Source of the DNA: a virus
Direction: 5' to 3' (one strand)
Virus record (IMG/VR): IMGVR_UViG_3300034375_003406
Location: 1 to 26,846 of that record
Length of the DNA: 26,846 bases
The notes beneath the pieces were generated by a model. That model made no database searches and was not told where the DNA came from. It saw nothing but the letters and a program-made list of their open reading frames with translations. Made by a program: the position numbers and the translations under genes. Positions 1 to 12,499 of the stretch are shown in pieces. Position 1 is the first letter of the stretch; every line of letters starts with the position of its first letter.

Positions 1-1
1 A

Positions 2-1549
2 CTTTATGGCAATGGTGCTATCGGTGTTGGTTGGGTAATAGCTTTTACTGAAAAAGATAGGTTTGGTGGAGATGCAGATTTTGCTATGTCTATGCGTATG
101 ACCTTCCCCACAGTATTGGCTATGTTTAATAATGAAAGCAATGATTATCCACCAACTACAGGAACGGTTATTTTAGGGGAAAACATACAAGGCATAAAAG
201 CTAATGGGGTAAGACAAAATATACCTATGTTTCAAACATCAGCATCACAAGGGGTAGCTTCTGCACCTACTGAAGTTGATAATTTAGTACGACAAATACC
301 TTTGCTTATGCAAACACCTGACGGATGGGTGGCTTCTTTTGGAACTGAGGTGCTAAAAGCATTAGCGCAGCAAAAGACTTACATTATAAAAGGCAGTGAA
401 AACGGCATAGAAGAAATATCTGTTAGGGGAATACCCCCTACAAAATTAGATAAGTTCGGCAGACAATGGATTAGTTGGGTAGATACGCCACAAACAACAC
501 TGCAAGAAATGGATGTTGAAGGCAAGTTTGTTTTTGTTGGTGTGACTGCTAAAGGTGTTATGCCACAGATAGCAACACCAGTTGGTCTTTTAGAGCCACA
601 TAAAATACAAGCTGCACTATCGGAATCAATATTGCTTGATAGCAGTTCTTATGTACCAAACTGGAATTTAACAGGAGAATTAGGTATTTTTTTGGTTTTA
701 GGCGCACTGACATGGCTTCTATTGAACGCTTTGGGTATAACATGGGGTTTAGTATTAACCAGTTTATTGCATTTATCTGTAGCTTATGGTGGTTACTGGA
801 TAATAAATAAGGGTATTTTGCTTGATGTTACATGGTCTTTAATCTCAGGATTTATTATTGCATCAACCGCTTTCTATTTAAGGTTTAGAGAGCAATACAA
901 ACTTAGACAACAAATCAAGAAACAATTTGAACATTACCTAGACCCAAGACAGGTCAAACAATTGCAAAAGAATCCTGATCTTTTGAAACTCGGTGGAGAG
1001 AAAAGAACCTGCACATTTTTGTTTACTGATCTAAGAGGTTTTACCGCATTGTCTGAATCTGTAACGCCTGAAAAAGTTACTTACATTATGAATAAAGTTT
1101 TGACAGCACAACAAATAGCCGTTCAAAAACATGGGGGCATGGTTGATAAGTATATAGGGGATGCAATGATGGCAATATTCAACGCTCCTTTGGACTTAAA
1201 AAATCACAGCATGGTTGCTGTAGCTTGTGCATTAGACATACTGCAAAATATCAAAGACCTTAATGAAGAATTAATATCAGAGGGTTTGCCAAGTATTGCT
1301 ATTGGTATAGGTATTAATAGTGGCGAAGCCATCATAGGCAACATGGGAAGTGAAAATAGATTTGATTACACAGCTATAGGTGATGCTGTGAACACAGCAG
1401 CTAGATTGGAAAGTGCTACAAAAGAAAGAGAAGTTGATTTGCTTATAGGGGAGCAAACAGAAGTTTACTGTGGTTTTTATTTAGAGCCTTTAGAACCTAT
1501 AATGGTTAAAGGTAAAGCAAAACCATTAAATATATTTACATGGAAATAA
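2..1549 (+). CDS. CHASE2-domain membrane class III nucleotide cyclase (5' end outside window)
   Basis: The frame is open from base 2, so the true start lies upstream; the first internal ATG is at 86. Counting from that Met, residues up to about 188 look like the C-terminal part of an extracytoplasmic CHASE2 sensor, including a segment VFVGVTAKG followed by IATPVG. Three hydrophobic helices follow (about 199-217, 220-241, 246-264), then a class III cyclase domain (about 300-487). Its key residues are present: metal-binding D315 (FTDLRGF) and D359 (IGDAMMAIF), substrate-selecting K355 and D433 (TAIGD), and transition-state N436 and R440 (NTAARLE). By family rules K plus D favours ATP, so cAMP is the likely product. 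The last codons overlap the next gene by 10 nt and the lysis genes follow directly, so the gene belongs to the phage operon. The signal sensed and the purpose of the product are unknown. The domain call is firm; the role is open. Confidence 0.9.
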   Translation, partial: LYGNGAIGVGWVIAFTEKDRFGGDADFAMSMRMTFPTVLAMFNNESNDYPPTTGTVILGENIQGIKANGVRQNIPMFQTSASQGVASAPTEVDNLVRQIPLLMQTPDGWVASFGTEVLKALAQQKTYIIKGSENGIEEISVRGIPPTKLDKFGRQWISWVDTPQTTLQEMDVEGKFVFVGVTAKGVMPQIATPVGLLEPHKIQAALSESILLDSSSYVPNWNLTGELGIFLVLGALTWLLLNALGITWGLVLTSLLHLSVAYGGYWIINKGILLDVTWSLISGFIIASTAFYLRFREQYKLRQQIKKQFEHYLDPRQVKQLQKNPDLLKLGGEKRTCTFLFTDLRGFTALSESVTPEKVTYIMNKVLTAQQIAVQKHGGMVDKYIGDAMMAIFNAPLDLKNHSMVAVACALDILQNIKDLNEELISEGLPSIAIGIGINSGEAIIGNMGSENRFDYTAIGDAVNTAARLESATKEREVDLLIGEQTEVYCGFYLEPLEPIMVKGKAKPLNIFTWK

Positions 1550-1764
1550 AAAAATTCATTCGTTGGTTTATAAGTTTATTTCAACAACGCTATCAAGTAA
1601 GAGTCTCTTTTAACAAAGAATATGGTGATGCAGACGACAAGGTTTATGTATGCAAAAAAATTCTTGTGCAAAAAGAAAACCATCTTAAATTTCGCAATTT
1701 AGACAATAAAGTTATAGAGTATAGAAGTGCAGGTGGACTAAATTACATTATTGAGGATATGTAA
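1540..1764 (+). CDS. Small hypothetical protein between cyclase and spanins
   Basis: This is a 74-aa protein that I do not recognise. The N-terminus carries a short amphipathic, basic stretch (KKFIRWFISLFQQR) that could lie on a membrane. The rest is polar and looks like a small beta-rich fold ending NYIIEDM. The ATG sits inside the 3' end of the cyclase gene (10 nt overlap), and the stop overlaps the next start as TAATG, which indicates translational coupling on both sides. Location suggests either an accessory to the cyclase or a gene of the lysis cassette. No function is claimed. Confidence 0.75.
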   Translation: MEIKKFIRWFISLFQQRYQVRVSFNKEYGDADDKVYVCKKILVQKENHLKFRNLDNKVIEYRSAGGLNYIIEDM

Positions 1765-2159
1765 TGCAACAGATTCTAGTTGGAATTATTATTATGCTAG
1801 GTTTAGCTACTTACTATTTCTATAGTCAAAATCAAATACTTACAGCCAACAATGCAGCGTTAGAGGGCGCAGTTGCAACACAAGAAGAAGCCATAGCATC
1901 CATACAAGCTGACTTTGAATTGCAAACACAACAACTGCAAGACCTGACAGTCAAAAGCCAAGCTGCACAAAAAGAATTGAATAGATATACACAGTTTATA
2001 CAAAACTACGAGTTAGCATCTAAGATACTTGCTGACCCAGTAGAAATGGAGAGGAAAATAAATAATGGTACAAAGCATATCATGGAAAACATTGAGCAAA
2101 TCAGCAGTGATGTTGACGGTCTTGATGATGGCTTACAGTTGCAGCCTACTTCCGACTAG
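1764..2159 (+). CDS. i-spanin (Rz-like) inner-membrane lysis protein
   Basis: This 131-aa protein has one N-terminal transmembrane helix (about residues 4-22) without a cleavage site. A long Gln/Ala/Glu-rich segment (about 25-95) with coiled-coil character follows, then a short polar tail. This is the plan of inner-membrane spanin subunits, which pair through the periplasm with an outer-membrane lipoprotein to fuse the two membranes at the end of lysis. The next ORF starts inside this gene in another frame and encodes a lipoprotein, which is the classic Rz/Rz1 layout. The start overlaps the previous stop (TAATG). The assignment rests on topology and context, since spanin sequences diverge strongly. 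Confidence 0.8.
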   Translation: MQQILVGIIIMLGLATYYFYSQNQILTANNAALEGAVATQEEAIASIQADFELQTQQLQDLTVKSQAAQKELNRYTQFIQNYELASKILADPVEMERKINNGTKHIMENIEQISSDVDGLDDGLQLQPTSD

Positions 2160-2454
2160 AGAAATACAGGTAAGCGCCAAACCTATTGAAAGAAAGATAG
2201 TTCAACCTGTCATGCCTAGAGAAATTGACCTAAGGGAATTGCAGTGGATGACTGTTACGCCTGATAACTGGGAAGATCAATTGGCAAGAATAGAGCAACA
2301 AGAAGGTGAGTTAGTGTTCCTTGCTATGACGATTCCTGACTATGAAGTCATGGCATACAATATGCAAGAGATCAAAAGATACATTACAGAACTAAAGGAT
2401 GTAGTTGTTTACTACCGAAAAGTAACAACTGAAAACCTTTCAATAGAAGAATAA
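2065..2454 (+). CDS. o-spanin (Rz1-like) outer-membrane lipoprotein, nested start
   Basis: This 129-aa protein starts 95 nt before the end of the i-spanin gene, in a different frame. The N-terminus is a lipoprotein signal: a short basic part, a hydrophobic core (VMLTVLMMA) and a lipobox-like AYSC, with Ser at +2, which favours outer-membrane sorting. A purine-rich site (GAGAGGAAAA) precedes the ATG. The mature chain of about 105 residues is larger than classical Rz1 and not especially proline-rich, so it is an extended o-spanin. It should complete the spanin complex with the preceding gene. Confidence is high from the lipobox and the nested layout together. Confidence 0.8.
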   Translation: MVQSISWKTLSKSAVMLTVLMMAYSCSLLPTREIQVSAKPIERKIVQPVMPREIDLRELQWMTVTPDNWEDQLARIEQQEGELVFLAMTIPDYEVMAYNMQEIKRYITELKDVVVYYRKVTTENLSIEE

Positions 2455-2490
2455 ATCTGATAGCCTTAAATTTTCATATAGGAGAATAAT

Positions 2491-2652
2491 ATGGGAATGA
2501 TAGGAGAATGGATAGGAATAATCACAGGAGTAGTATGTTTAGCATCTATTATCTGTGCATTAACTCCGACTCCGAAAGATGATGCAATGATCGGAAAGTT
2601 CTATAAATTTTTAGAACTTATGGCATTGAACATTGGAAAAGCTAAACAGTAA
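2491..2652 (+). CDS. Holin-like small membrane protein
   Basis: A 53-aa ORF with a good ribosome binding site (GGAG, 6 nt before the ATG). It has one hydrophobic helix (about residues 4-24), then the motif TPTPKDD and a tail ending LALNIGKAKQ. Short proteins with one membrane helix followed by TPTPKDD and LALNIGKAK recur in marine phage lysis regions, where they are usually annotated as holin-like. It lies between the spanins and the endolysin, the usual place for a holin. One helix only, so if it is a holin it is of the small single-span kind. Function is inferred from position and motif. Confidence 0.7.
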   Translation: MGMIGEWIGIITGVVCLASIICALTPTPKDDAMIGKFYKFLELMALNIGKAKQ

Positions 2653-2659
2653 AAACCAA

Positions 2660-2680
2660 AGGTGCAGAAGCACCTATTTA
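2660..2680 (+). terminator. Short hairpin after the holin-like gene
   Basis: A perfect 6-bp stem (AGGTGC / GCACCT) with an AGAA loop, followed by ATTTAATTT, lies between the holin-like stop and the nuclease start. The T-tract is weak, so it could be a leaky terminator, an RNA-processing site or a translational control element for the next gene, whose ATG lacks a clear Shine-Dalgarno site. Confidence 0.35.
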
Positions 2681-2684
2681 ATTT

Positions 2685-3080
2685 ATGGCAAATACAGTTA
2701 CACCATTCGTTTATAACGCAATCTTAGAAAGGGTCGTAGATGGCGACACCGTTGATGTTACTCTTGACTTGGGCTTCTCTGTCCATCTAAAAAAACAACG
2801 CTGCAGGTTGGCAGGCATAGATACGCCTGAGTCAAGAACTCGCAACCTAGAAGAAAAAGCATTAGGTTTAAAAGCAAAAGAAAGACTAAAAGAACTATGC
2901 GTGGGGTCATTTAAAATACAATCATTAGGAAAAGGTAAATATGGCAGAATACTTGCAATCCCTTATACGGAAGATGGTCAAGACATTTGTCAAATGCTTA
3001 TCAAAGAAGGTCACGCAGTTGAATACTGGGGTGGAACTAAAAAAGCAAAAGTCAGAGATGACGGAACTTGGGGTGAATAA
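2685..3080 (+). CDS. Staphylococcal nuclease-like (SNase) thermonuclease
   Basis: A 131-aa single-domain protein of the TNase/SNc family, which cleaves DNA and RNA with calcium. The family hallmarks are visible: RVVDGDTVDV near the N-terminus (Asp ligands), CRLAGIDTPESR carrying the catalytic Arg and Glu, and KYGRILA carrying the second catalytic Arg. Length fits a bare SNase OB-fold. No signal peptide is seen, so it should be cytoplasmic unless released by lysis. It sits between the holin-like gene and the endolysin, and so is probably expressed late. It may degrade host nucleic acid or reduce viscosity at lysis; that role is inference. No strong ribosome binding site precedes the ATG. Confidence 0.92.
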   Translation: MANTVTPFVYNAILERVVDGDTVDVTLDLGFSVHLKKQRCRLAGIDTPESRTRNLEEKALGLKAKERLKELCVGSFKIQSLGKGKYGRILAIPYTEDGQDICQMLIKEGHAVEYWGGTKKAKVRDDGTWGE

Positions 3081-3081
3081 T

Positions 3082-3525
3082 ATGCATATATCAGATGAAG
3101 GAATTTCATTAGTTAAAAAGTTTGAAGGCTGTAAGTTAGAAGCATATCAATGTGCTGCAGGTGTTTGGACTATAGGCTATGGCTCAACGCATGGTGTACA
3201 GAAAGGAGATGTTTGGTCGCAAGAAAAAGCAGAAGTTATGCTTATTGACGAACTAGAAGAATACGGCAAGTATGTAGAAGAATTAGTAACTCTACCTCTC
3301 AATCAATGTCAATTTGATGCTCTTGCTTCATGGACATTTAACTTAGGACCAAGCAACTTGCAGAGCAGCACAATGCTTAAGGTTTTAAATTCAGGCGATT
3401 ATGAGGGTGTTCCAAATCAAATAAAGAGATGGAATAAAGTTAGCGGTCAGGTAAATGATGGTTTGATTCGTAGACGAGAAGCAGAAGCATTGTTATTTGA
3501 GGGTAAGCATTGGGAACATATCTAG
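3082..3525 (+). CDS. Endolysin, GH24 lysozyme (E-C-T type)
   Basis: This 147-aa muramidase hydrolyses peptidoglycan at lysis. The catalytic signature is clear: KKFEG with the Glu, eight residues to Cys in AYQCAAG, then five to Thr in WTIGYGS, giving the E-8-C-5-T triad of P21-like endolysins rather than the T4 Asp version. The C-terminal half has FDALASWTFNLG and NDGLIRRREAE, both usual in the family. I chose ATG 3082 because it directly follows the nuclease stop with GGGGTG upstream and puts the catalytic Glu near the N-terminus. An in-frame extension to 2941 only reads over the nuclease gene. There is no SAR or signal sequence, so it needs a holin. Confidence 0.93.
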   Translation: MHISDEGISLVKKFEGCKLEAYQCAAGVWTIGYGSTHGVQKGDVWSQEKAEVMLIDELEEYGKYVEELVTLPLNQCQFDALASWTFNLGPSNLQSSTMLKVLNSGDYEGVPNQIKRWNKVSGQVNDGLIRRREAEALLFEGKHWEHI

Positions 3526-3741
3526 ATGGCTCTAAGCAAGACACAGAACAAAAGGCTTGGGGTGATACTAAGTGTTATGTTCAAAGAAGAAACGCCACAG
3601 GAGCTACTACAGGATGTCATACGGCATGGTTTCGTAGAGAAAGTTGATAATACTTTTCAACTCACAGATAAAGGCATTGATGAAAAAAACCGACTTTGCA
3701 CCCTTAGTGGACTTAATATCAAGTATTCAAGCGAAAAATAA
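3526..3741 (+). CDS. Hypothetical protein, possible winged-helix
   Basis: A 71-aa protein beginning immediately after the endolysin stop (no gap), so likely translated by reinitiation. It is not recognised. The order of elements (a helix, ETPQELLQDVIRHGF, then FQLTDKG) resembles a small winged-helix fold, but this is weak. Its stop lies one base from the tail end of the leftward oxygenase gene, so it closes the rightward lysis operon. Confidence 0.6.
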   Translation: MALSKTQNKRLGVILSVMFKEETPQELLQDVIRHGFVEKVDNTFQLTDKGIDEKNRLCTLSGLNIKYSSEK

Positions 3742-3742
3742 T

Positions 3743-4299
3743 CTAAATCCAGTCAGCACCTTCGTACCATCCAACAAGGCTGAATCTCTCGCCCTTAGTT
3801 ACCTTAGTGACTCTGTGATAAAGAAAAGAAGGAAACACTAGGATTGTTCCTTTTTCTCTTAGCTTCTTTTGATCTAGTTTGCCTATATCTTTACTAACTC
3901 AAAGTCTCCACCGACATAATCAATACTGTCTGATAGTTGAACTGTAATGCTTAACTTACGCTGTGAACTATTATCGTAGATGTTTGAATCCATGTGATAG
4001 TCATAGAAGTCACCCTTGCCATACTTAGCTATTTGAAACTCAAAGTATCTATTTAATTGCACACCAAAGCATTCACGATTTGCCATAGTTATATAAGGCT
4101 CAATAATTCTATTAAGATATATCCCATGTTTAGAATCAAAACTACAAGGCAGAACATTAGATGATCTTACGGACTTATCAATATTAGCTACATTTCCTAC
4201 CTTTGCTTCTTTGGTTTTGCCTTCAAGGTATAAAGACTTAATTGCTTCACAATATTCTTCACTGAGTTCTGCTTGCCATGAATAGCAGTAGGTGTTCAT
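3743..4299 (-). pseudogene. 2OG-Fe(II) oxygenase (PKHD/P4H type) split by a -1 frameshift
   Basis: The upstream part (4299 down to the TAG at 3883-3885, 138 aa) gives the N-terminal half of a prolyl-4-hydroxylase-like dioxygenase. It includes the first iron ligands in YHMDS (H102, D104) and ends at YVGGDFELVK. The rest of the fold is intact in the -1 frame, ending at the TAG at 3743-3745. It has KGTILVFPSFLYHRV with the distal His ligand, then KGERFSLVGWYEG with the Arg that binds 2-oxoglutarate. The shift must lie in about 3886-3900; one extra base there restores a 185-aa protein of normal family length. No canonical slippery heptamer is visible, so a point deletion or an assembly error is likelier than programmed frameshifting. 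If intact, it would hydroxylate a protein or small substrate. It is the last gene of the leftward operon. Confidence 0.85.
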
Positions 4300-4383
4300 T
4301 AAGTTCGTGCTCTAAATAAATACAAAAGGTTTCTAATAGTTTGTTTAGGTAAATGTTGAAGATGCTTCGGTATTTTTACTCCC

Positions 4384-4575
4384 CTAACTATCACTTTTTA
4401 TTCTCCACATTTTTATTGATTTATAAATAACCAAAGACAAGCTTATGCCCAACAAAAAAGCAGGTAGAAGTATTTGCCATTGCACACTTTCAACAAATAG
4501 GTAATCCAACCAATACTCTAAACCATGTTCTTGCCAATATTCTATATTCCAAAATGTTTCTCTAAATATAAACAT
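4384..4575 (-). CDS. Small membrane protein
   Basis: A 63-aa peptide with one clear transmembrane helix (about residues 33-53, LLPAFLLGISLSLVIYKS) between an aromatic N-terminal part and a basic C-terminus (KMWRIKSDS). The ATG directly abuts the stop of the upstream 36-aa gene, whose 3' end contains the GAGG ribosome binding site. Family unknown. It is the last of the micro-genes before the oxygenase. Confidence 0.65.
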   Translation of the reverse strand: MFIFRETFWNIEYWQEHGLEYWLDYLFVESVQWQILLPAFLLGISLSLVIYKSIKMWRIKSDS

Positions 4576-4686
4576 TTACATTTCCTCGTCTATATCAGAC
4601 TTGCTGAAAGCATATGCAGGTAAAACTATACAAAGTAGTAAACCTATTGCTCTCGCTAGTTCAAATATTATTAATTCAATAGTCAT
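4576..4686 (-). CDS. 36-aa hydrophobic micro-protein
   Basis: Reads from ATG 4686 to TAA 4576. After ten residues comes a hydrophobic stretch (IGLLLCIVLPAYAF), then an acidic tail (SDIDEEM). This could be a membrane anchor or a signal-peptide-like segment with an AYA site. The start lies inside the end of the upstream 47-aa gene and the stop directly abuts the next ATG. GGGGTAAAG precedes the start. Function unknown. It is supported by overlap coupling and the ribosome binding site, not by homology. Confidence 0.55.
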   Translation of the reverse strand: MTIELIIFELARAIGLLLCIVLPAYAFSKSDIDEEM

Positions 4687-4819
4687 TATCTTTACCCCAC
4701 TTACAGTTAATTATGTCCTCTAACTCATTAGCCGTATTTTCATTAATTATAAAATCAATAATAATCCAAGCCATCATCCATATTGCTACTGGCAATATAA
4801 TCCAAAATAAATAATTCAT
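4676..4819 (-). CDS. 47-aa membrane micro-protein
   Basis: Reads from ATG 4819 to TGA 4676. One strongly hydrophobic helix, rich in Trp and Met (about residues 3-24), is followed by a soluble acidic tail of about 20 residues (NELEDIINCK and onward). A strong ribosome binding site (AAGGGGGAA) lies in the end of the upstream gene, whose TGA overlaps this start. The 3' end overlaps the next gene by 11 nt. Family unknown. Confidence 0.6.
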   Translation of the reverse strand: MNYLFWIILPVAIWMMAWIIIDFIINENTANELEDIINCKWGKDNDY

Positions 4820-4914
4820 AGTTCCCCCTTAATCCATAAAATCATTTGTAAAAATATAGCACAAGCACCATATAGTGCTAAAAATCCTATTACTAAATAT
4901 ATAAATGCTTCCAT
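4816..4914 (-). CDS. 32-aa single-helix micro-protein
   Basis: Reads from ATG 4914 to TGA 4816. Almost the whole peptide is one transmembrane helix (FIYLVIGFLALYGACAIFLQ). Its start overlaps the TAA of the upstream 61-aa gene (TAATG) and its stop overlaps the next ATG (ATGA). The double overlap and the ribosome binding site of the next gene within its last codons argue that it is translated. Function unknown. Confidence 0.55.
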   Translation of the reverse strand: MEAFIYLVIGFLALYGACAIFLQMILWIKGEL

Positions 4915-5099
4915 TAGTGTAATACCCTCTCTCTACAGCCATTCTTCATAAATTCTTGAAGATCATGCCAATCTTTTAAGGTTAAAATATCTGCTACTTC
5001 GTGAATAGGCATACTCATAAAGTCTGTTTGATATTTAATAGATAACTTAGCCACCTTGCGTTCCAAGGGTGACATATCTTTGAACTCATTATCTGACAT
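4914..5099 (-). CDS. Small hypothetical soluble protein
   Basis: A 61-aa charged, probably helical protein with no membrane segment. It has a central MSPLERKVAKLS and a C-terminal LTLKDWHDLQEFM. Its start lies within the end of the 58-aa gene upstream (overlap of 11 nt) and its stop overlaps the next start. I recognise no family. It is the only clearly soluble member in the run of five overlapping micro-genes that begins here. Confidence 0.65.
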   Translation of the reverse strand: MSDNEFKDMSPLERKVAKLSIKYQTDFMSMPIHEVADILTLKDWHDLQEFMKNGCRERVLH

Positions 5100-5265
5100 T
5101 TTCTACCTCTCTAGATTTATAAGAAGCAGTTTGACCAGTAGACCATATTTGATCTACTCGTTTTTCTGCATCTGATTTTTTATTGTAAGTTGCTATTTTT
5201 TTATGCTCTCCATATCTTCCGATATGTGCAAAATACTGGTAGACGTCATAAACAATAGTTTTCAT
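5089..5265 (-). CDS. 58-aa hypothetical protein
   Basis: Reads from ATG 5265 to TAA 5089. It begins MKTIVYDVYQYF, then a basic, polar stretch (HKKIATYNKKSDAEKRVDQI) that looks like a small alpha/beta unit. The ATG overlaps the TGA of the 103-aa gene (ATGA), and the 3' end overlaps the 61-aa gene by 11 nt. It could bind nucleic acid or a protein partner, but nothing specific can be said. Confidence 0.65.
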   Translation of the reverse strand: MKTIVYDVYQYFAHIGRYGEHKKIATYNKKSDAEKRVDQIWSTGQTASYKSREVENVR

Positions 5266-5573
5266 GCTTGTACCTCATTATATATAAAACCACTTAGGTT
5301 AAAATTATCTATAACAACTGTGTCACCCCATGTTTCATAAATTTTTTCTCCATGTCTGCCGTTACCCATGGGTACTAAGAAATAAAATTTATCATTTATA
5401 AGGTCATGTAAAACATCACCACTAGATGTGCTTCTTTTACCCTCAGGATGCCAAGATTCATCTATGTTTTGTGTTTGTGCAAATGCTTCGGATAAACTTT
5501 CCGTATGTATACAAGCAACTCTTGTATATGGTAGTTCGTTGTTGCCTTTAATTGAATGGTATATATCAAACAT
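5262..5573 (-). CDS. Hypothetical protein
   Basis: A 103-aa soluble protein. The central part contains ESLSEAFAQTQNIDESW, and the second half has KFYFLVPMGNGRHGEKIYETWGD, a beta-rich pattern. I do not recognise the family. It starts directly after the TAA of the 74-aa gene and ends overlapping the 58-aa gene, so it is the second cistron of the leftward operon driven from about 5850. Confidence 0.7.
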   Translation of the reverse strand: MFDIYHSIKGNNELPYTRVACIHTESLSEAFAQTQNIDESWHPEGKRSTSSGDVLHDLINDKFYFLVPMGNGRHGEKIYETWGDTVVIDNFNLSGFIYNEVQA

Positions 5574-5798
5574 TTATACCACCATGAATCCTTGACCACA
5601 CAATGCAGGTATTGCATGTGAGCCTAATTTATCTATTGCCCATTGTAATTGAAATATAGCTGTTACCCTTGTGCTGTTAGGTATGCCAACTATTATTGGT
5701 TTAGCTATATCAAATCCTAATTTAACTAATGCTTTTTCACAATTTTGTGTAGTAGCGTAAGTTCTTAGGTTATTGTTATTTTCTAGTATGTTTATCAT
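5574..5798 (-). CDS. Hypothetical protein, first gene of leftward operon
   Basis: A 74-aa protein, the promoter-proximal cistron of the operon. AAGGATAAAATG gives a clear ribosome binding site. It has a polar N-terminus (INILENNNN) and then hydrophobic patches (KPIIVGIPNSTRVTAIFQLQ). Family unknown. The leader before it (TTAATTAAACAAGGATAAA) is nearly the same as those in front of the leftward genes at 19297 and 20551. Confidence 0.7.
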   Translation of the reverse strand: MINILENNNNLRTYATTQNCEKALVKLGFDIAKPIIVGIPNSTRVTAIFQLQWAIDKLGSHAIPALCGQGFMVV

Positions 5799-5828
5799 TT
5801 TATCCTTGTTTAATTAATTTATAGGTAC

Positions 5829-5875
5829 ATCATACCAAATGGTGGACAAAAGTAAACCTTTTTTGGAATAATATT
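5829..5875 (-). promoter_or_regulatory. Leftward promoter with conserved upstream box (copy a)
   Basis: Read on the minus strand: box AATATTATTCC plus A6 plus GG, then -35 TTTACT (5851-5856), a 16-bp spacer and -10 TATGAT (5829-5834). The same box with TTTAC recurs before three other leftward operons. It abuts the stop of the HNH gene (5876) and drives the 74-aa gene and those downstream. Confidence 0.75.
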
Positions 5876-6220
5876 TTAAAAAGGTAAATCGTTATCATCC
5901 ACACTTTCTTGCATACTTCTTTGTTCCCAAAGTTTTTTTGCCCAATCTTTACCAAAGCTTGCAGGAAGTCCAAAGTGTGTAAAAAATTTATATTCATCAC
6001 CAAACTTGGTGTGTAACATAGCATGGTGGTGATAGCATAAAGGTATTGCATTTTTATCATTAGCTTTTAAAGACATACCTCTAACGCCGTCATATGGTTT
6101 TAAAAGATGATGTGCTTGCACTTCTCTGCTGTGTGAATAATAACCTGCTTTACATAAAAGGCATGGCAAAGTCCTTATCCATTCAAGATACTTTCTATCT
6201 TTAAAAGTTTTTTGTGGCAA
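5876..6220 (-). CDS. HNH-type nuclease-like protein with SSB-like C-terminal tail
   Basis: A 114-aa protein with a zinc/HNH pattern: CLLC near residue 20, then QAHHLLK, NAIPLCYHHHAMLH and an aromatic tail region, as in DUF968/HNH phage nucleases. It would cut or nick DNA, perhaps at recombination junctions. No ATG lies before the CLLC motif. The start must be the TTG at 6218-6220, directly after the in-frame TAA of the upstream gene, and no clear ribosome binding site is seen. The last residues, VDDNDLPF, closely resemble the acidic tip of single-stranded DNA-binding proteins (DDDIPF type), which is unexpected in a nuclease. It is last in the recombination operon. Confidence 0.75.
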   Translation of the reverse strand: MPQKTFKDRKYLEWIRTLPCLLCKAGYYSHSREVQAHHLLKPYDGVRGMSLKANDKNAIPLCYHHHAMLHTKFGDEYKFFTHFGLPASFGKDWAKKLWEQRSMQESVDDNDLPF

Positions 6221-6592
6221 TTAAAAAGGTACTTTAGCTTTTACAGATTCCTGTGTTGTGCCTTGGTCATTGACTTCTTGAAAACCAATGCTTGTAAATG
6301 GAACTCCATCTTTGCTTTCTTTAGCCCAACAACCAAGTTTATACACAGTTTCATCAATGGTAACTTTGCCACCCATGTCGGGTGTTTTATCGCTTTGTTT
6401 ATCAGTATTAAGATGCAACAAACCTGTAGACATCATAAACTCATACTTAGGCTCACCTTGTGCATTAAAACTTTTTACAATAGCACCATATTTTTTTTCG
6501 CCATTTATAACAAAGCTACCTTTTCTTTCTATGGTTGCATCATTTTCATGCCATAAGTAACCTTTCTTCTCATCATCATACTGTCTATCCAT
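6221..6592 (-). CDS. DUF736-like small phage protein
   Basis: A 123-aa protein. The central part (KYEFMMSTGLLHLN, then SDKTPD and KLGCWAKESKDGVPF) resembles the DUF736 pattern of a short beta-barrel with a Lys-Ser-Asp-x-Pro-Asp motif. The biochemical role of that family is not known to me. It overlaps the upstream winged-helix-like gene by 8 nt, with GGAGT as ribosome binding site. It is followed without a gap by the HNH gene in the same frame. The chain ends KVPF, so it shares a terminal PF with its neighbour. In a recombination operon, a single-strand DNA-binding role is possible but unproven. Confidence 0.6.
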   Translation of the reverse strand: MDRQYDDEKKGYLWHENDATIERKGSFVINGEKKYGAIVKSFNAQGEPKYEFMMSTGLLHLNTDKQSDKTPDMGGKVTIDETVYKLGCWAKESKDGVPFTSIGFQEVNDQGTTQESVKAKVPF

Positions 6593-6851
6593 TTTTTACT
6601 CCTATTAATTTATATTCAAACCCTTTGCCATTTAATTGTTTTCTTTTCTCTATAACCTCACCAAATTTAGCTAGTTTATATTTTACCCTTGCAGGCTCTT
6701 TTCTAAGATTTCTTATGGCAGCCGAAATGGACGGCTCACCATAAAAAACATCTGACTTTTCTTTTATTACTTTTTGTAAATCCCAAAAAGTCCACCATTC
6801 TTCATTACGCATACATAAAAATACGCAATCATCTAATGTTAATTTAGGCAT
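6585..6851 (-). CDS. Winged-helix-like DNA-binding protein
   Basis: An 88-aa protein with the order expected of a winged helix: helix (TLDDCVFLCM), turn and helix (FWDLQKVIKEK), recognition-like helix (SISAAIRNLRKEP), then a wing (GKGFEYKLIG). Family not identified. It overlaps the annealing-protein gene upstream by 8 nt and the DUF736-like gene downstream by 8 nt, so it belongs to the recombination operon. It could be a loader or regulator acting with the annealing protein. Confidence 0.6.
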   Translation of the reverse strand: MPKLTLDDCVFLCMRNEEWWTFWDLQKVIKEKSDVFYGEPSISAAIRNLRKEPARVKYKLAKFGEVIEKRKQLNGKGFEYKLIGVKNG

Positions 6852-7521
6852 ACATTTCTACCATAGTGTCATAAGATTGTTTTAATGAAACATCTTTAGA
6901 TTCTATAGATAAATAGGCTCTTTCTATTTCACTAGAGTTTAATGTAAATAACTCTTTTCTTTTTTCATCATTAAGTAAAGCCATTTGCACTCTTATAGAT
7001 TGAATATAATCTACAGGTGTAGTATCCATAGAAATTTCATCATCATCTATTCTTTTTAATAAAAAACCTTTTACTTTATTTGGTTCAGTTTTTTTTACTA
7101 TTTTTTTAGGTGCAGATGGTTTGCTATTTATTGCATTATCTACTTCAAATGCACTTGCATATTCACCACCACCAAGACCACATGAAGCCAAGGCACGACC
7201 TATGGCACTTGTACAACAGTTTTCTAGGGCAGATGTTTTGTTAATATAACCCTCTGCTCTAAATTCTTCTGCAAAGTCTTTACCAATTGTGTACCAACCA
7301 GTTTCTTCTGCATTACAAATCTCTATCTGTGCTTCTACCACAACCCTTTCTAGGTCATGATGTATTATATTGGTAATTACACCTACCTTTGAACCTAAAT
7401 GCTTTCTAAGGACTTGTAAGCGTTTGTCTACTGTAGTGTAAAACTTACCCTTTATCTGTACTTTATCTTCATTTGATAGGTTTGCTATTTCATTTATTGC
7501 GTCAATTAATTTATCACTCAT
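6844..7521 (-). CDS. Single-strand DNA annealing protein, Rad52/Erf-like
   Basis: A 225-aa protein. The N-terminal 130 residues match a common phage recombinase pattern: GKFYTTVDKRLQVLRKHLG, then VVEAQIEI, GYINKTSALENC, TSAIGRALASCGLGGGEYAS and FEVDNAI. The run TSAIGRALA resembles the Rad52/Sak segment before the last core helix. The C-terminal 90 residues are variable and charged. It would anneal complementary single strands during phage recombination and genome repair. I chose the ATG at 7519-7521 because GGAG sits 7 nt upstream and it overlaps the upstream TGA as ATGA; the longer frame to 7578 only reads over the nuclease gene. The neighbouring RecB-like nuclease supports an exonuclease-annealase pair. 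Confidence 0.7.
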   Translation of the reverse strand: MSDKLIDAINEIANLSNEDKVQIKGKFYTTVDKRLQVLRKHLGSKVGVITNIIHHDLERVVVEAQIEICNAEETGWYTIGKDFAEEFRAEGYINKTSALENCCTSAIGRALASCGLGGGEYASAFEVDNAINSKPSAPKKIVKKTEPNKVKGFLLKRIDDDEISMDTTPVDYIQSIRVQMALLNDEKRKELFTLNSSEIERAYLSIESKDVSLKQSYDTMVEMYA

Positions 7522-8306
7522 TCTATTCTCCATAGTTTTTTTGCAGCATCTTGATCTACTGGATTTGACCATCGCCAATCGTCAAAGTCAGGGTAGAACA
7601 AACTTGCTACTTGGTTTATATCATCTGAATAAGAAAGAACATTCATCATAGATAATGCAGCCTTTCTCAGTTCAATGACTCTTTTTCTTACATCTGTAAT
7701 TTCTATAGATACAACTTCGGCTTTCGTCTTGGTCACATGTATAAAATCAGCATAAGGTATGCTTTCTTCTGCAAAGGCATAGAGACTTAACTGACGACAG
7801 ATGGTTGATGGCACTTTAGACATAAGGCGACCAGTGGTCTTTATATCTCTAGTAATACCATCATATTGAAGATCAATATACCCAATGACTGGCACAGGTA
7901 TATCTTCAAATTCTACTTCAATTCTTTTTTGGCATTCTTGGGGTTTACCAAGTTTTGCATAAAACGGTATAGCAACTTCTAAATATCTTTGTAAATTATT
8001 TCTTTCTTTATCTACAGCATCTATGTCGTAGTCATGAGTTGCATTGTGATATTCATACAAAGAATCATAATCATATTCAGAGTTTGTAATTGATCTGTGT
8101 AATTTCTTTTCTATAGATAAATCATTTTCAAAAGATTTGCATATAGCATCATCTATAACAGTACCACGCCACATGGCAGGATTTGGTATACCTCTATGAC
8201 CACTAACCTTGAGAATCCAAGATGCAGGATTAGTTATAAATTGATTTATGGCACTAGCAGATAAGTGTTCTATACCATGTACTTTAAATGGGTTGTTATT
8301 TTTCAT
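7518..8306 (-). CDS. PDDEXK exonuclease, RecB/Cas4-like
   Basis: A 262-aa nuclease. HLSASAINQF at the N-terminus is the usual opening of RecB-family phage exonucleases. The catalytic core is visible as RGTVIDDAI (about 47-55), VIGYIDLQYDG with D145, TRDIKTTGR with D154 and K156, and RQLSLYAFA with Q172 and Y176. It should degrade DNA ends to give single strands for the annealing protein encoded next, with a 4-nt overlap. No iron-sulphur cysteine cluster is evident. It overlaps the 106-aa gene upstream as ATGA. Confidence 0.85.
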   Translation of the reverse strand: MKNNNPFKVHGIEHLSASAINQFITNPASWILKVSGHRGIPNPAMWRGTVIDDAICKSFENDLSIEKKLHRSITNSEYDYDSLYEYHNATHDYDIDAVDKERNNLQRYLEVAIPFYAKLGKPQECQKRIEVEFEDIPVPVIGYIDLQYDGITRDIKTTGRLMSKVPSTICRQLSLYAFAEESIPYADFIHVTKTKAEVVSIEITDVRKRVIELRKAALSMMNVLSYSDDINQVASLFYPDFDDWRWSNPVDQDAAKKLWRIE

Positions 8307-8623
8307 AATCCGTAAGCCTGTTTAGATACATAACCTTGATTGTTTCTAGTTACAATTTTTGTATCTATACCTGTTTGGTTTTCTAGTTTGCCAATAACTT
8401 TAGCTATCTCAAATTTAATAGTTTTAATAAGCAGTTCAGACTCTAAATCGCTTATTACAAATCCCTCTGCATCTTTAAGAACTTGTCTTGCTACGCTATC
8501 CATAATGTTTAAACCACCAAAACATTTTTTGTATACTTGATCTTCTAAGTCAACAATAGATGACAAGATCAACAGTTTTGCTAGATGGTTAATATTTTTT
8601 ATTTCTTGGTTTTGATATTTCAT
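8303..8623 (-). CDS. Hypothetical protein, first gene of recombination operon
   Basis: A 106-aa, mostly helical protein (LAKLLILSSIVDLEDQVYKK, then LESELLIKTIKFEIAKVIGK). I do not recognise the family. It is promoter-proximal in the leftward recombination operon and its TGA overlaps the nuclease start. It has a weak AAAGGTAATAAAATG ribosome binding site. It may assist the exonuclease or annealing protein, judged by position only. Confidence 0.65.
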   Translation of the reverse strand: MKYQNQEIKNINHLAKLLILSSIVDLEDQVYKKCFGGLNIMDSVARQVLKDAEGFVISDLESELLIKTIKFEIAKVIGKLENQTGIDTKIVTRNNQGYVSKQAYGL

Positions 8624-8675
8624 TTTATTACCTTTAATTTATTACCTTTTGGGGTAGTGTTTATTTAATATAGTC

Positions 8676-8704
8676 AGTATAATTCATTTATGGAATAATT
8701 AGAA
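8676..8704. promoter_or_regulatory. Overlapping divergent promoters between recombination operon and HTH gene
   Basis: On the + strand a perfect TATAAT (8678-8683) is followed after 8 nt by GGAATAATT, the same half-box seen after the terS -10. On the minus strand TATACT (8676-8681) pairs with TTCTAA (8699-8704) across 17 bp. The two -10 elements overlap, so the two directions should compete. No good -35 is visible for the rightward one. Confidence 0.5.
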
Positions 8705-8711
8705 CCTTTTT

Positions 8712-8918
8712 ATGAAATTAAAAAAATACTTAGAAAAAGAAAAACATACACAAATGTCTTTTATAGATCAGATAGAAATGGCTAAGGGTGTAAAAATACC
8801 ACAAGGCACATTTGCAAAATGGATAACTGGCTCTCGCATACCTAGAAAAAAAGAAATGCTAATACTGTTAGATATAACAGAAGGCAATGTACAGCCAAAT
8901 GATTTTTATATTGACTAA
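8712..8918 (+). CDS. Small HTH (Cro/CI-like) regulator
   Basis: A 68-aa helix-turn-helix protein. The helices are readable: LKKYLEKEKHTQMSFIDQIEM, then IPQGTFAKWITGSRIPRKKE with a recognition helix that resembles Cro/YdaS-type proteins, then EMLILLDITEG. At this size it is a bare DNA-binding domain. It is a candidate for the factor that binds the repeated boxes around the phage promoters. It has no evident Shine-Dalgarno site (ACCTTTTTATG). The stop overlaps the next start (TAATG), so it is the head of the rightward modification-type cassette. Confidence 0.75.
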   Translation: MKLKKYLEKEKHTQMSFIDQIEMAKGVKIPQGTFAKWITGSRIPRKKEMLILLDITEGNVQPNDFYID

Positions 8919-9316
8919 TGAAAAAAGGCTTCACTTGTGGCGCTTTTGATTTATTGCATGCAGGACACATAGTTATGCTTATGGAAGCAAAAGAAAATTG
9001 TGATTATCTTATTGTAGGATTGCAAACAGATCCATCTTTAGATAGAAAAGAAAAAAACAAACCAGTACAGTCTATTTATGAAAGATACACACAATTAAAT
9101 GCCATAAAATATATAGATGAAATATTGCCATACGATACTGAAAAAAGTTTATTGGATTTATTAGAAGCCACTGAAATAGATATAAGGTTTGTAGGCGATG
9201 ATTATGCTGATAAAAAATTTACAGGTCATGGTTTGCATGAAACTTATTACACTAGTAGAAAACATAGTTTCTCTACAACAACTCTAAGGGAAAGGATAAA
9301 AAATGTTAGAAATTAA
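8918..9316 (+). CDS. Cytidylyltransferase-like nucleotidyltransferase
   Basis: A 132-aa enzyme of the HxGH nucleotidyltransferase superfamily. CGAFDLLHAGH (H14, H17) binds the nucleotide, and SFSTTTLRER (about 118-126) corresponds to the ISTT/SSTxxR signature. Length and motifs are close to glycerol-3-phosphate cytidylyltransferase (TagD-like), which makes CDP-glycerol. Other substrates (choline or ethanolamine phosphate, sugar phosphates) cannot be excluded. It is coupled to the HTH gene upstream (TAATG) and overlaps the ParB-domain gene by 14 nt. Next to a glycosyltransferase-like gene it may supply an activated donor; this link is inference. Confidence 0.85.
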   Translation: MKKGFTCGAFDLLHAGHIVMLMEAKENCDYLIVGLQTDPSLDRKEKNKPVQSIYERYTQLNAIKYIDEILPYDTEKSLLDLLEATEIDIRFVGDDYADKKFTGHGLHETYYTSRKHSFSTTTLRERIKNVRN

Positions 9317-9920
9317 AAATCAAAAAATAAAAAATATAAAAAAACACGAAAACAACCCAAGAAAACATACTGACAAGCAAATAAACCAAATAAGCAAATC
9401 TATACAAGAATTTGGTTTTACAAATCCAATTTTAATAGACGAAAACAAAACAATTATTGCAGGTCATGGTAGATATATGGCAGCCAAAAAATTAAGTTTA
9501 GAAGAAATACCAACAATAACTTTAAAAAATTTAACTGATGAACAGATAAAGGCTTTAATGATTGCTGATAACAAATTAGGCATGAACAGTACATGGGATG
9601 AAGATTTGTTATGGAAACAAATAGAAGAACTTAATAACGGTACCTTTGATATAGAGTTACTAGGTTTTGATAAAGAACAAATAATACCTTTTGTACAAGA
9701 CGAAGCACTAATTAATGATGTCTTGGCAGAGTGGGAAGGCATGCCTGAATTTGTATCTGAAGATAAAACCGCATATAGAAGTGTAATCGTGCATTTTGAA
9801 AATGAAGATGATGTTGTGGCATTTCAAATGAAACTTGAACAAAGTTTTAGTGAGAAAGCAAAATATATTTGGTACCCACATAAAGAAAATATGGATACAG
9901 AAAGCAAAAGATATGAGTAA
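9303..9920 (+). CDS. ParB-like nuclease-domain protein without methyltransferase
   Basis: A 205-aa protein. Residues 1-95 form a ParB/sulfiredoxin-like domain: ENNPRKHTDKQI, then FTNPILID and IIAGHGRYMAAKKL with the GHGR motif, followed by LTDEQIKALMIADNKL. In many phages this domain is the N-terminal half of a DNA methyltransferase, but here no SAM-binding or DPPY/NPPY motif follows. Instead residues 157-194 carry a short beta-alpha unit (SVIVHFENEDDVVAFQMKL, then AKYIWYPHKE). A clear AAGGA ribosome binding site lies before the ATG. The 3' end overlaps the glycosyltransferase gene by 8 nt. It may recognise or nick DNA for the neighbouring modification-type enzymes; role unproven. Confidence 0.8.
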   Translation: MLEIKNQKIKNIKKHENNPRKHTDKQINQISKSIQEFGFTNPILIDENKTIIAGHGRYMAAKKLSLEEIPTITLKNLTDEQIKALMIADNKLGMNSTWDEDLLWKQIEELNNGTFDIELLGFDKEQIIPFVQDEALINDVLAEWEGMPEFVSEDKTAYRSVIVHFENEDDVVAFQMKLEQSFSEKAKYIWYPHKENMDTESKRYE

Positions 9921-10788
9921 TCCTTATTATCCACTTTTTATACCATCTAAAGGCAGAGCAGATACTAGATATACAGCAAAATATTTAGACTATATGAAAG
10001 TGCCATATAGATTGGTAATAGAGCCACAAGAATATAAAGAATATTTATCAGAAGTAGGTGATAAGAAAAAATTGTTGGTTCTTGATATGTCATATAAAGA
10101 AAAGTACGAGTTATGTGACGATCTAGGTTTAAGCAAGTCAACTGGACCAGGACCAGCAAGAAATTTTGCATGGGATGTTTCTATAGCAGAGGGTTATAAA
10201 TATCATTGGGTAATGGATGACAATATAAGAAGTTTTAGACGCTTAAATTACAATGAAAAAGTAAAGGTAACAAACGGCAGCATCTTTGCTGCAATGGAAG
10301 AATTTGCACAACGCTATACAAATCTTGGTATGTGTGGACCTAATTACACTTTTTTTGCACCTGCAACACAGAAACGACCACCTTTTGTTATGAATACAAG
10401 AATATACTCATGCAATTTAATAAAGAACGACATACCTTTTAGGTGGAGAGGTAGATATAACGAAGATACAATTTTATCTTTAGATATTTTAACGGCAGGA
10501 ATGTGTACAGTGCAATTTAATGCATTCTTGCAAGAAAAAATTACTACACAAGTAGTAAGAGGTGGCAACTCTGCCGAGTTTTACGACAATGAAGGTACTT
10601 TAGCAAAATCTAAAATGCAGGTTAAGGTTTACCCTGACTATTCAAGAATTGTAAAAAAATACGGCAGAATACATCATTATGTAGATTACAACCCATTTAA
10701 AAAAAACAGGCTTATTAGAAAAGAAGATGTTGTAATACCAAAAAAATCACTGCATGAAATGAAATTAAAAATTTCTAAATCTAGCTAA
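9913..10788 (+). CDS. TET-associated glycosyltransferase-like (TAGT) protein
   Basis: A 291-aa protein that reads like the TAGT/GREB-type glycosyltransferases: YPLFIPSKGRADTRYTAKYL at the start, LVIEPQEYKEYL, then GPGPARNFAWD (about 78-88) and YHWVMDDNIRSFRRL (about 97-111), where DDN is the likely metal and nucleotide-sugar site. Known relatives lie near TET/JBP dioxygenases in phages and are proposed to add sugars to hydroxylated bases. I chose ATG 9913 because it precedes the conserved core and gives the 8-nt overlap; an in-frame extension to 9835 reads over the ParB gene. No TET/JBP gene is in the window. It converges with the primase-helicase gene, overlapping it by 8 nt. Confidence 0.82.
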   Translation: MSNPYYPLFIPSKGRADTRYTAKYLDYMKVPYRLVIEPQEYKEYLSEVGDKKKLLVLDMSYKEKYELCDDLGLSKSTGPGPARNFAWDVSIAEGYKYHWVMDDNIRSFRRLNYNEKVKVTNGSIFAAMEEFAQRYTNLGMCGPNYTFFAPATQKRPPFVMNTRIYSCNLIKNDIPFRWRGRYNEDTILSLDILTAGMCTVQFNAFLQEKITTQVVRGGNSAEFYDNEGTLAKSKMQVKVYPDYSRIVKKYGRIHHYVDYNPFKKNRLIRKEDVVIPKKSLHEMKLKISKSS

Positions 10789-12499
10789 TATTAAAATTAT
10801 CTATGTATGCAGTTTCCCAATCATCATCAACATTATGGTATTTAACAAAACACCTTTGATCTGTATCGTATTTAAACTTTGCTTCGCCTATTTTTCCATA
10901 TAGGTCTTGTTCTCGTATTTTTCTTGTTATTACATTGGTTGAATTGTCGTCAAAGTCTCTATGTACTGTGAGAACTGCATCTGCTTGATTATGCCAATGT
11001 GCAGCACCACTGATGTCATATGCCGTAGGTGGTAAATAACTGCCATCATTTGTTTTAGGTAGTTTTGTAGGGTGTGCTATAACCCAACATACAACCTCAT
11101 AAATTCTAGTAAACCTTTTACACAAAGAAATAAAATCACGAATATGCTCATCTTCTCTTTGATTGCCTTGTCTTACTGCTGAAACTTCGTTAAAAGGGTC
11201 AATAACCAAACCATTAATACCATGTTTATATATTGCAGATTTAGCAATAGAAAGTATTAAATCAATAGAGGGTATTGCATCTTTAGTTTCTATAAAGTAA
11301 AAATGCTTGTGTATAAAATCTAAGGCTTTGTTTAACTCTGCTTTGGTCATTCTATTCTTTAGACCTTCATCAAAAGGTTTTTTAAGATACATTTGCACCA
11401 ATCTTCTTATATGCATTGACGTACTATGTTCAGGTGAAAACATTGCAAAAGACCAACCATGTGTTTCTGCAAGTTTTAATAATATTTGATCTGTAAATAC
11501 AGACTTACCATGATTTGGTATTCCTGTAATAACATGAAAAGTACCTGTCATAACTTTGTATATATCGTCTAAGCCATCCATACCTATCTCTGTAGGTCTT
11601 TCGTAATTACCCTCATATAAATCATTAAGTTGTTTTGTGTAGTCGTTAGCTGTGTATAAACCTTCAATTGGATAAGGCGTGGCATTTTCTATGACCTCTC
11701 TAAGTTTCATAGCCCCATGTTTAATTAATACATCATTAGCATCTTTGCAATTGTCGGGTGGTGTAACAAACCAACATATATCTTTACCAAATCTATGTAG
11801 CAATTCCTTATGTAAGGCTCTGCCACTGCTGTCATTATCAGTAAATAAAATAATCTTGGTAGCAACTAAGTTGCAATTTTCTAATGCTTTAAATCTAGCA
11901 TCTTGCTTGTCAAACTTTGCTTCTTTTGGTGCGCCATTTGGTAAAGTAGTCGCATTGTCAAAACCACATTCACCTAATGCTAAAACATCAAACTCACCCT
12001 CAGTAAAAATTATTGTTTTCTCGTTACAAATTTTGTCGTAGTTATAAAGAATGGATTTTGCATTAGCAGATTGCCTAAATTGTTTATCTCTTGTTCTGTA
12101 TTTTAGATTTGTTAGTTGTCCGTTTTCATCAAAATATTGAAAAACACACCATTCGTTTTCTTGCACTACATTAAATCTTTCGCATGTAGATTTACTAATA
12201 CCTCTTTCTTTCATGTAGTCATAAAAGCTATCTGATGGTTTCTTGGCTACTGTAGGTGGCTTTGGTTGAATATAATTAGGTTTCTTATAAGGTTGATATA
12301 AAGAACCAGTACTGCTACCACCAGTCCATTCACAATGGTGGCACTTCCATAGAACAGTTCCATTGTCTATGGTTACAGATAAAGGATTATCCCTTGGATT
12401 ATGTGGTGGTTGACATTGTGGACATTTGGTTTTTTGATTTCCGTCTTGTTGGTGTTTTAAATTTATATTATTTTCAATTAATGTTTTATCTATGGTCAT
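10781..12499 (-). CDS. Replicative primase-helicase (T7 gp4 / Twinkle-like)
   Basis: A 572-aa bifunctional replication enzyme. The zinc-ribbon is at the N-terminus (C26, C29, C53, C56 in CPQC and CHHC). A TOPRIM primase core follows (IIFTEGEFDVLALG with E167, and ILFTDNDSSGRALH with D221 and D223). The second half is a RecA-like hexameric helicase with Walker A in GIPNHGKS (326-333) and a Walker B-like GLVIDPFNE. It should prime and unwind at the phage fork. AGGA precedes the ATG, just after the replication protein gene. No DNA polymerase is in the window, so one lies outside it or the host's is used. The 3' end overlaps the convergent glycosyltransferase gene. Confidence 0.95.
   Translation of the reverse strand: MTIDKTLIENNINLKHQQDGNQKTKCPQCQPPHNPRDNPLSVTIDNGTVLWKCHHCEWTGGSSTGSLYQPYKKPNYIQPKPPTVAKKPSDSFYDYMKERGISKSTCERFNVVQENEWCVFQYFDENGQLTNLKYRTRDKQFRQSANAKSILYNYDKICNEKTIIFTEGEFDVLALGECGFDNATTLPNGAPKEAKFDKQDARFKALENCNLVATKIILFTDNDSSGRALHKELLHRFGKDICWFVTPPDNCKDANDVLIKHGAMKLREVIENATPYPIEGLYTANDYTKQLNDLYEGNYERPTEIGMDGLDDIYKVMTGTFHVITGIPNHGKSVFTDQILLKLAETHGWSFAMFSPEHSTSMHIRRLVQMYLKKPFDEGLKNRMTKAELNKALDFIHKHFYFIETKDAIPSIDLILSIAKSAIYKHGINGLVIDPFNEVSAVRQGNQREDEHIRDFISLCKRFTRIYEVVCWVIAHPTKLPKTNDGSYLPPTAYDISGAAHWHNQADAVLTVHRDFDDNSTNVITRKIREQDLYGKIGEAKFKYDTDQRCFVKYHNVDDDWETAYIDNFNIS

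Follow-up and report, generated by a model that had tools for sequence, protein, structure and literature searches.

Curli genes have been described in several marine phages. The csgF and csgG genes were found in pelagimyophages in 2020 (PMC7029224), and a phage curli/T8SS cassette that also includes FecR and adenylate cyclase genes was reported in 2022 from pelagiphage podo- and myoviruses, where it is ocean-wide and expressed (PMC9599517). For phage Melnitz, a role of the curli pore in lysis was proposed, and no clumping was observed in the infections (PMC9004378). Curli cassettes are common in ocean phages. Among bacteria, the signals of the Sinorhizobium meliloti CHASE2 cyclases arrive through the outer-membrane protein NsrA, CyaD1 deprived of its CHASE2 domain is constitutive, and the FecR-domain protein SMc02177 is dispensable for the perception of the plant signal (PMC7529298, PMC5498481). 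Likewise, a FecR-CHASE2-kinase operon of Burkholderia has been tied to biofilm (PMC5192318).

The stretch of DNA analysed here, which we call the window, is the whole 26,846 nucleotides of the IMG/VR virus record IMGVR_UViG_3300034375_003406. It starts within a cyclase gene that is followed by small genes and lysis genes:

2 to 1549, + strand, CHASE2-TM-class III nucleotide cyclase, open at the 5' end (last 515 of 590 amino acids)
1540 to 1764, + strand, ORF of 74 amino acids, overlapping the cyclase stop and found directly after FecR in the relative L198
1764 to 2159, + strand, Rz-like inner-membrane spanin (phrog_739, 8.4e-9)
2065 to 2454, + strand, Rz1-like outer-membrane spanin, overlapping the inner-membrane spanin (phrog_812, 1.4e-11)
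2491 to 2652, + strand, small protein of 53 amino acids, possible holin (phrog_9685, a PHROG of unknown function, 1.1e-9)
2685 to 3080, + strand, SNase-like nuclease (PF00565, 1.6e-13)
3082 to 3525, + strand, phage lysozyme, i.e. the endolysin (PF00959, 4.9e-46)

The ORF at 2-1549 has Pfam matches to CHASE2 (5.8e-14) and Guanylate_cyc (1.5e-20), and the window lacks the 75 amino acids from the 5' part of the gene, comprising TM1 and the beginning of CHASE2. These are present in the IMG/VR contig L003, which is 99.983% identical to window positions 1-11545 across 11,546 bases and continues leftward; this rules out a junction to host or chimeric DNA at base 1, as do contigs L002 and L004. Extension to the left, which the original prediction had proposed as a check, yielded a complete gene with curli genes upstream. 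The genes of L003 in this region are:

upstream of the small TM pair, + strand, lambda J-like tail protein, then two small proteins
6219 to 6754, + strand, two paralogous small TM proteins (unknown PHROG 18771)
6834 to 7307, + strand, CsgF (Pfam, 6.6e-18)
7252 to 8088, + strand, CsgG (Pfam, 8.7e-48)
8057 to 8755, + strand, curlin-like repeat protein (motif and profile)
8670 to 9779, + strand, FecR-domain protein (Pfam FecR, 4.7e-11)
9776 to 11548, + strand, full-length cyclase of 590 amino acids (CHASE2 3.2e-25, Guanylate_cyc 1.9e-20)

The csgF, csgG, curlin and FecR genes are adjacent and co-directional (L003 6834-9779), and the FecR stop overlaps the cyclase start in an ATGA. Because Pfam makes no call on the curlin-like protein, we identified it by its I-x-Q-x-G-x-x-N-type repeats, with 4 copies versus 0.13 in shuffled sequences, and by its profile linkage to the annotated curlins of HTVC008M and Melnitz.

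The cyclase is not new as a phage gene, since the cassette is published and both HTVC008M and Melnitz have it; the cassette is of a known kind, here in a siphovirus-like phage, with a siphophage-homologous major capsid protein, a Mu F-like protein and a J-like tail protein. The terminase and capsid relatives of this phage point to several different host directions. The order csgF-csgG-curlin-FecR-(curlin)-cyclase, after one or two small genes, is shared with the pelagiphage cassette (PMC9599517), whereas here the head and tail genes are of siphovirus type, there is a single curlin and the lysis genes are directly downstream. At the position of the published 'histidine kinase' there are here proteins of 80-115 amino acids, in a comparison with the published description only, and HisKA/HATPase kinase models found no match in these proteins preceding csgF. 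HTVC008M (SAR11) and Melnitz (OM43) contain the same cassette, in which the cyclase shares 33% identity with the window query along 97% of that query, but they are myoviruses with a second curlin and a cyclase without adjoining lysis genes. The second curlin of HTVC008M (L082 6391-7716) combines a PA14 domain (2.7e-6) with curlin repeats, and could possibly be a sugar-binding adhesin on the fibre; such PA14-tipped second curlins were found in 7 loci only, and not in the window phage. In the cyclase of Melnitz (L083 7725-9776), Ser replaces the transition-state Asn and an Asp occupies the second substrate-specifying position, so that this enzyme is possibly impaired.

A single chain unites the CHASE2 domain, TM helices and the class III catalytic domain, and the AlphaFold topology (mean pLDDT 89) comprises TM1, a periplasmic CHASE2, TM2-4 and the cyclase. 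The protein has the metal Asp residues D418 and D462, the substrate Lys K458 and the transition-state residues N539 and R543, all five invariant across 76 full-length phage homologues; at position 532, 73 of these homologues have Thr and the other three have Ser. Pfam matches, residue alignment and predicted topology thus agree with the original prediction of a CHASE2-TM-class III cyclase with intact key catalytic residues. The cyclase is under purifying selection, with dN/dS values of ca. 0.06-0.17 in the usable comparisons of the CHASE2 and catalytic domains among relatives. The combination of Lys and Thr is the residue pattern of class IIIb adenylate cyclases, and adenylate cyclases, CyaB among them, are the nearest proteins with a solved structure. 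Judging from these residues, the protein is probably an active enzyme, Lys458 and Thr532 would fit an ATP-using class IIIb cyclase, and cAMP is its predicted product.

We found relatives of the cyclase in at least 599 IMG/VR stretches, and curli genes were present in the cyclase-anchored loci with sufficient upstream DNA. Against the bias of cyclase-anchored sampling, we scanned phage loci using CsgG as the anchor. A small TM gene and csgF were upstream of CsgG in all 143 phage loci with sufficient DNA, and curlin and FecR were downstream in each of the 60 with at least 7 kb on that side; the cyclase was found in 52 of these 60, and the eight without it retained FecR. In the close relative L198, whose CsgG is 97% identical, FecR abuts the 74-aa ORF and the lysis genes, and therefore the cyclase alone is missing there. 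From this linkage and from L198, it follows that the cyclase is an accessory of the curli cassette, of which it is the last gene, and that it is linked to curli and not to lysis. One or two paralogous small TM proteins precede csgF in the 143 phage loci, and none were found in three bacterial loci described below; such proteins might be how phages in particular have adapted the curli system. We also observed phage-type curli cassettes inside bacterial genome bins (contigs L084, L086, L089, L091 and L185, from Pelagibacter, Maricaulis and Flavobacteriaceae MAGs and a SAR11-family genome), which represent either binning artefacts or infected cells.

The three bacterial loci contain csgF, csgG, curlin, FecR and CHASE2 cyclase genes in the same order and without lysis genes, and the phage cassette therefore looks like a bacterial-type operon. 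Two of them are in Caulobacteraceae MAGs (L087 and L093) and the third is in a 705-kb Hyphomonas contig (L088); in the two that were examined closely, L087 and L088, the cassette stands among ordinary chromosomal genes. Their catalytic residues are intact, as in the window phage, although they are found on bacterial contigs (MAGs), lack the small TM pair and have a cyclase with a longer C-terminus. The cyclase tree separates the curli-linked phage and bacterial cyclases from other CHASE2 cyclases with a branch support of 99%, and the CsgG tree shows the same split (support 93%); in the former, the phages and the three bacterial loci form a trichotomy compatible with either direction of transfer. 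The arrangement is rare in bacteria. Canonical curli operons were rejected as the source of the FecR-cyclase genes, because neither gene was near any of 35 other CsgF loci, nearly all from Caulobacterales and a few of them truncated. The FecR-CHASE2 pair appears to be wider than curli cassettes, as we found FecR near CHASE2 genes in 21 out of 40 sampled Pseudomonadota loci, using a profile iterated over these same loci.

The model of the FecR protein consists of an N-terminal helix resembling a signal peptide, a beta domain (residues 29-190), a disordered acidic linker of about 90 residues (ca. 207-294) and a small C-terminal beta domain. Foldseek searches with this model retrieved FecR/PupR cell-surface-signalling domains and also the cell-surface-anchoring domain 5ix9 (62 columns, 1.1 A, E = 0.03), and giant adhesin-like ORFs of the three genomes checked have a FecR-type domain close to their N-terminus. 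These features suggest that this FecR might not be an iron regulator but a secreted periplasmic anchor of surface structures. A curlin-like repeat at its C-terminus was not accepted, with an hhalign probability of only 30%, and remains a hint.

On balance, we consider it probable that the CHASE2 cyclase is a periplasmic sensor of curli assembly that acts via FecR, forming the receptor end of a bacterial-type curli operon. CsgG and CsgF would export curlin onto the infected cell, and the secreted FecR would anchor or plug the fibre near CsgG from the periplasmic side. If the FecR beta domain touches the CHASE2 domain, the cyclase would thereby report the assembly state or the tension of the fibre, presumably with cAMP as its output, and the displayed fibres could lead to cell aggregation or to the exclusion of competing phages, as proposed by others. 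The gene order, catalytic residues, purifying selection, predicted topology and curli linkage provide the basis for this model. By analogy, the S. meliloti and Burkholderia precedents would support signalling from FecR to CHASE2. In S. meliloti, CyaD1, CyaD2 and CyaK are likewise CHASE2 receptor cyclases with outer-membrane signal input and a nearby FecR-domain gene, smc02177; unlike the system proposed here, they sense a plant protein and act through the CRP-type regulator Clr, and no curli linkage is described for them in the corresponding papers (PMC7529298, PMC5498481). Against the sensor model are the dispensability of SMc02177, the retention of FecR without cyclase in 8/60 cassettes and the Melnitz infections without clumping. 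The occurrence of FecR and cyclase in bacterial curli operons, with FecR as a possible fibre anchor, makes this a testable signalling chain.

The gene order of the window had first suggested that the cyclase belongs to a lysis operon and might sense the periplasm, setting the moment of lysis jointly with the spanins and endolysin encoded after it. The cyclase does overlap the 74-aa ORF and precede spanins, SNase and lysozyme here and in near relatives; the holin-like gene is a possible holin only, its sole match being to a PHROG of unknown function, and the 74-aa ORF has no Pfam or PHROG match. However, the conserved neighbours of the cyclase are csgF, csgG, curlin and FecR. Lysis genes within 3 kb after the cyclase were found in only 15 of 50 CsgG-anchored phage loci, so this linkage is not a conserved trait among other phages, and HTVC008M carries an opposite-strand tail gene at that place. 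The position upstream of the lysis genes is a trait of this phage group, and the inner-membrane spanin is a lineage-specific neighbour outside the curli cassette. Even with the lysis role proposed for the Melnitz curli pore (PMC9004378), we set lysis timing aside as very unlikely because of these linkage statistics and the natural absence of the cyclase in L198, which keeps the lysis genes; the lysis interpretation is thus largely displaced. The clean absence from 8/60 cassettes, including that of L198, would also fit a cyclase that arrived as a passenger of the operon and does little by itself in phages. This we regard as improbable, given the low dN/dS, the invariant catalytic residues and the retention of the cyclase in 87% of the cassettes and across sipho-, myo- and podovirus-type phages.

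The remaining alternatives concern the reader of the cyclic nucleotide. Phage cAMP could act through a host CRP-family regulator and reprogramme metabolism or surface genes, as in the earlier suggestion of an altered host metabolism; the class IIIb fit of Lys458 and Thr532 and the action of the S. meliloti CHASE2 cyclases through Clr make this possible for CRP-bearing hosts. Among 79 SAR11-family genomes of unstated completeness, from the group that hosts related phages, a cNMP-binding domain was found in four, a Crp-type HTH over the cut-off in one, in a 246-aa protein that we read as FNR-like, and a class III cyclase over the cut-off in two, both on contigs bearing the phage-type cassette. 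CRP-type receptors and native class III cyclases are thus nearly absent from SAR11-family genomes; their scarcity speaks against cAMP simply acting through CRP in this group and directs attention to the reader of the cyclic nucleotide during infection. CRP is therefore an unlikely target of cAMP in SAR11-type hosts, which may or may not include that of the window phage, and we judge the CRP route as a whole to be unlikely. A phage-encoded cAMP receptor was also discarded, because a search of 11 phage records, some of which are fragmentary, found no cNMP-binding domain (PF00027). This same result counts against the suggested block on other phages, in which a Pycsar-like cyclic nucleotide would switch on an effector against competitors. 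PADLOC PycC models do find the catalytic domain (best 3.4e-29), a match that reflects the class III fold common to both, but PADLOC matched none of the neighbours tested and Pycsar, as known, has neither CHASE2 nor curli linkage, which makes this reading extremely improbable. Returning to the assembly sensor, phages might bring it complete (pore, fibre, FecR and cyclase) into hosts without class III cyclases or CRP-type receptors; if so, the messenger would need an undescribed receptor or would have to be detected by other cells or by other phages, an extension that we consider doubtful.

Other genes of the window deserve mention. An ORF at 3883-4299 (- strand) is 2OG-Fe(II) oxygenase-like (2.3e-5, slightly short of the Pfam cut-off), and has 138 amino acids versus 185 in its L198 homologue. 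A cytidylyltransferase-like protein (8918-9316, + strand, 1.1e-16) is encoded beside a ParB-like gene and, after the latter, a TET-associated glycosyltransferase (TAGT; 9835-10788, + strand, 2.2e-38); this glycosyltransferase hints at base modification of the phage DNA.
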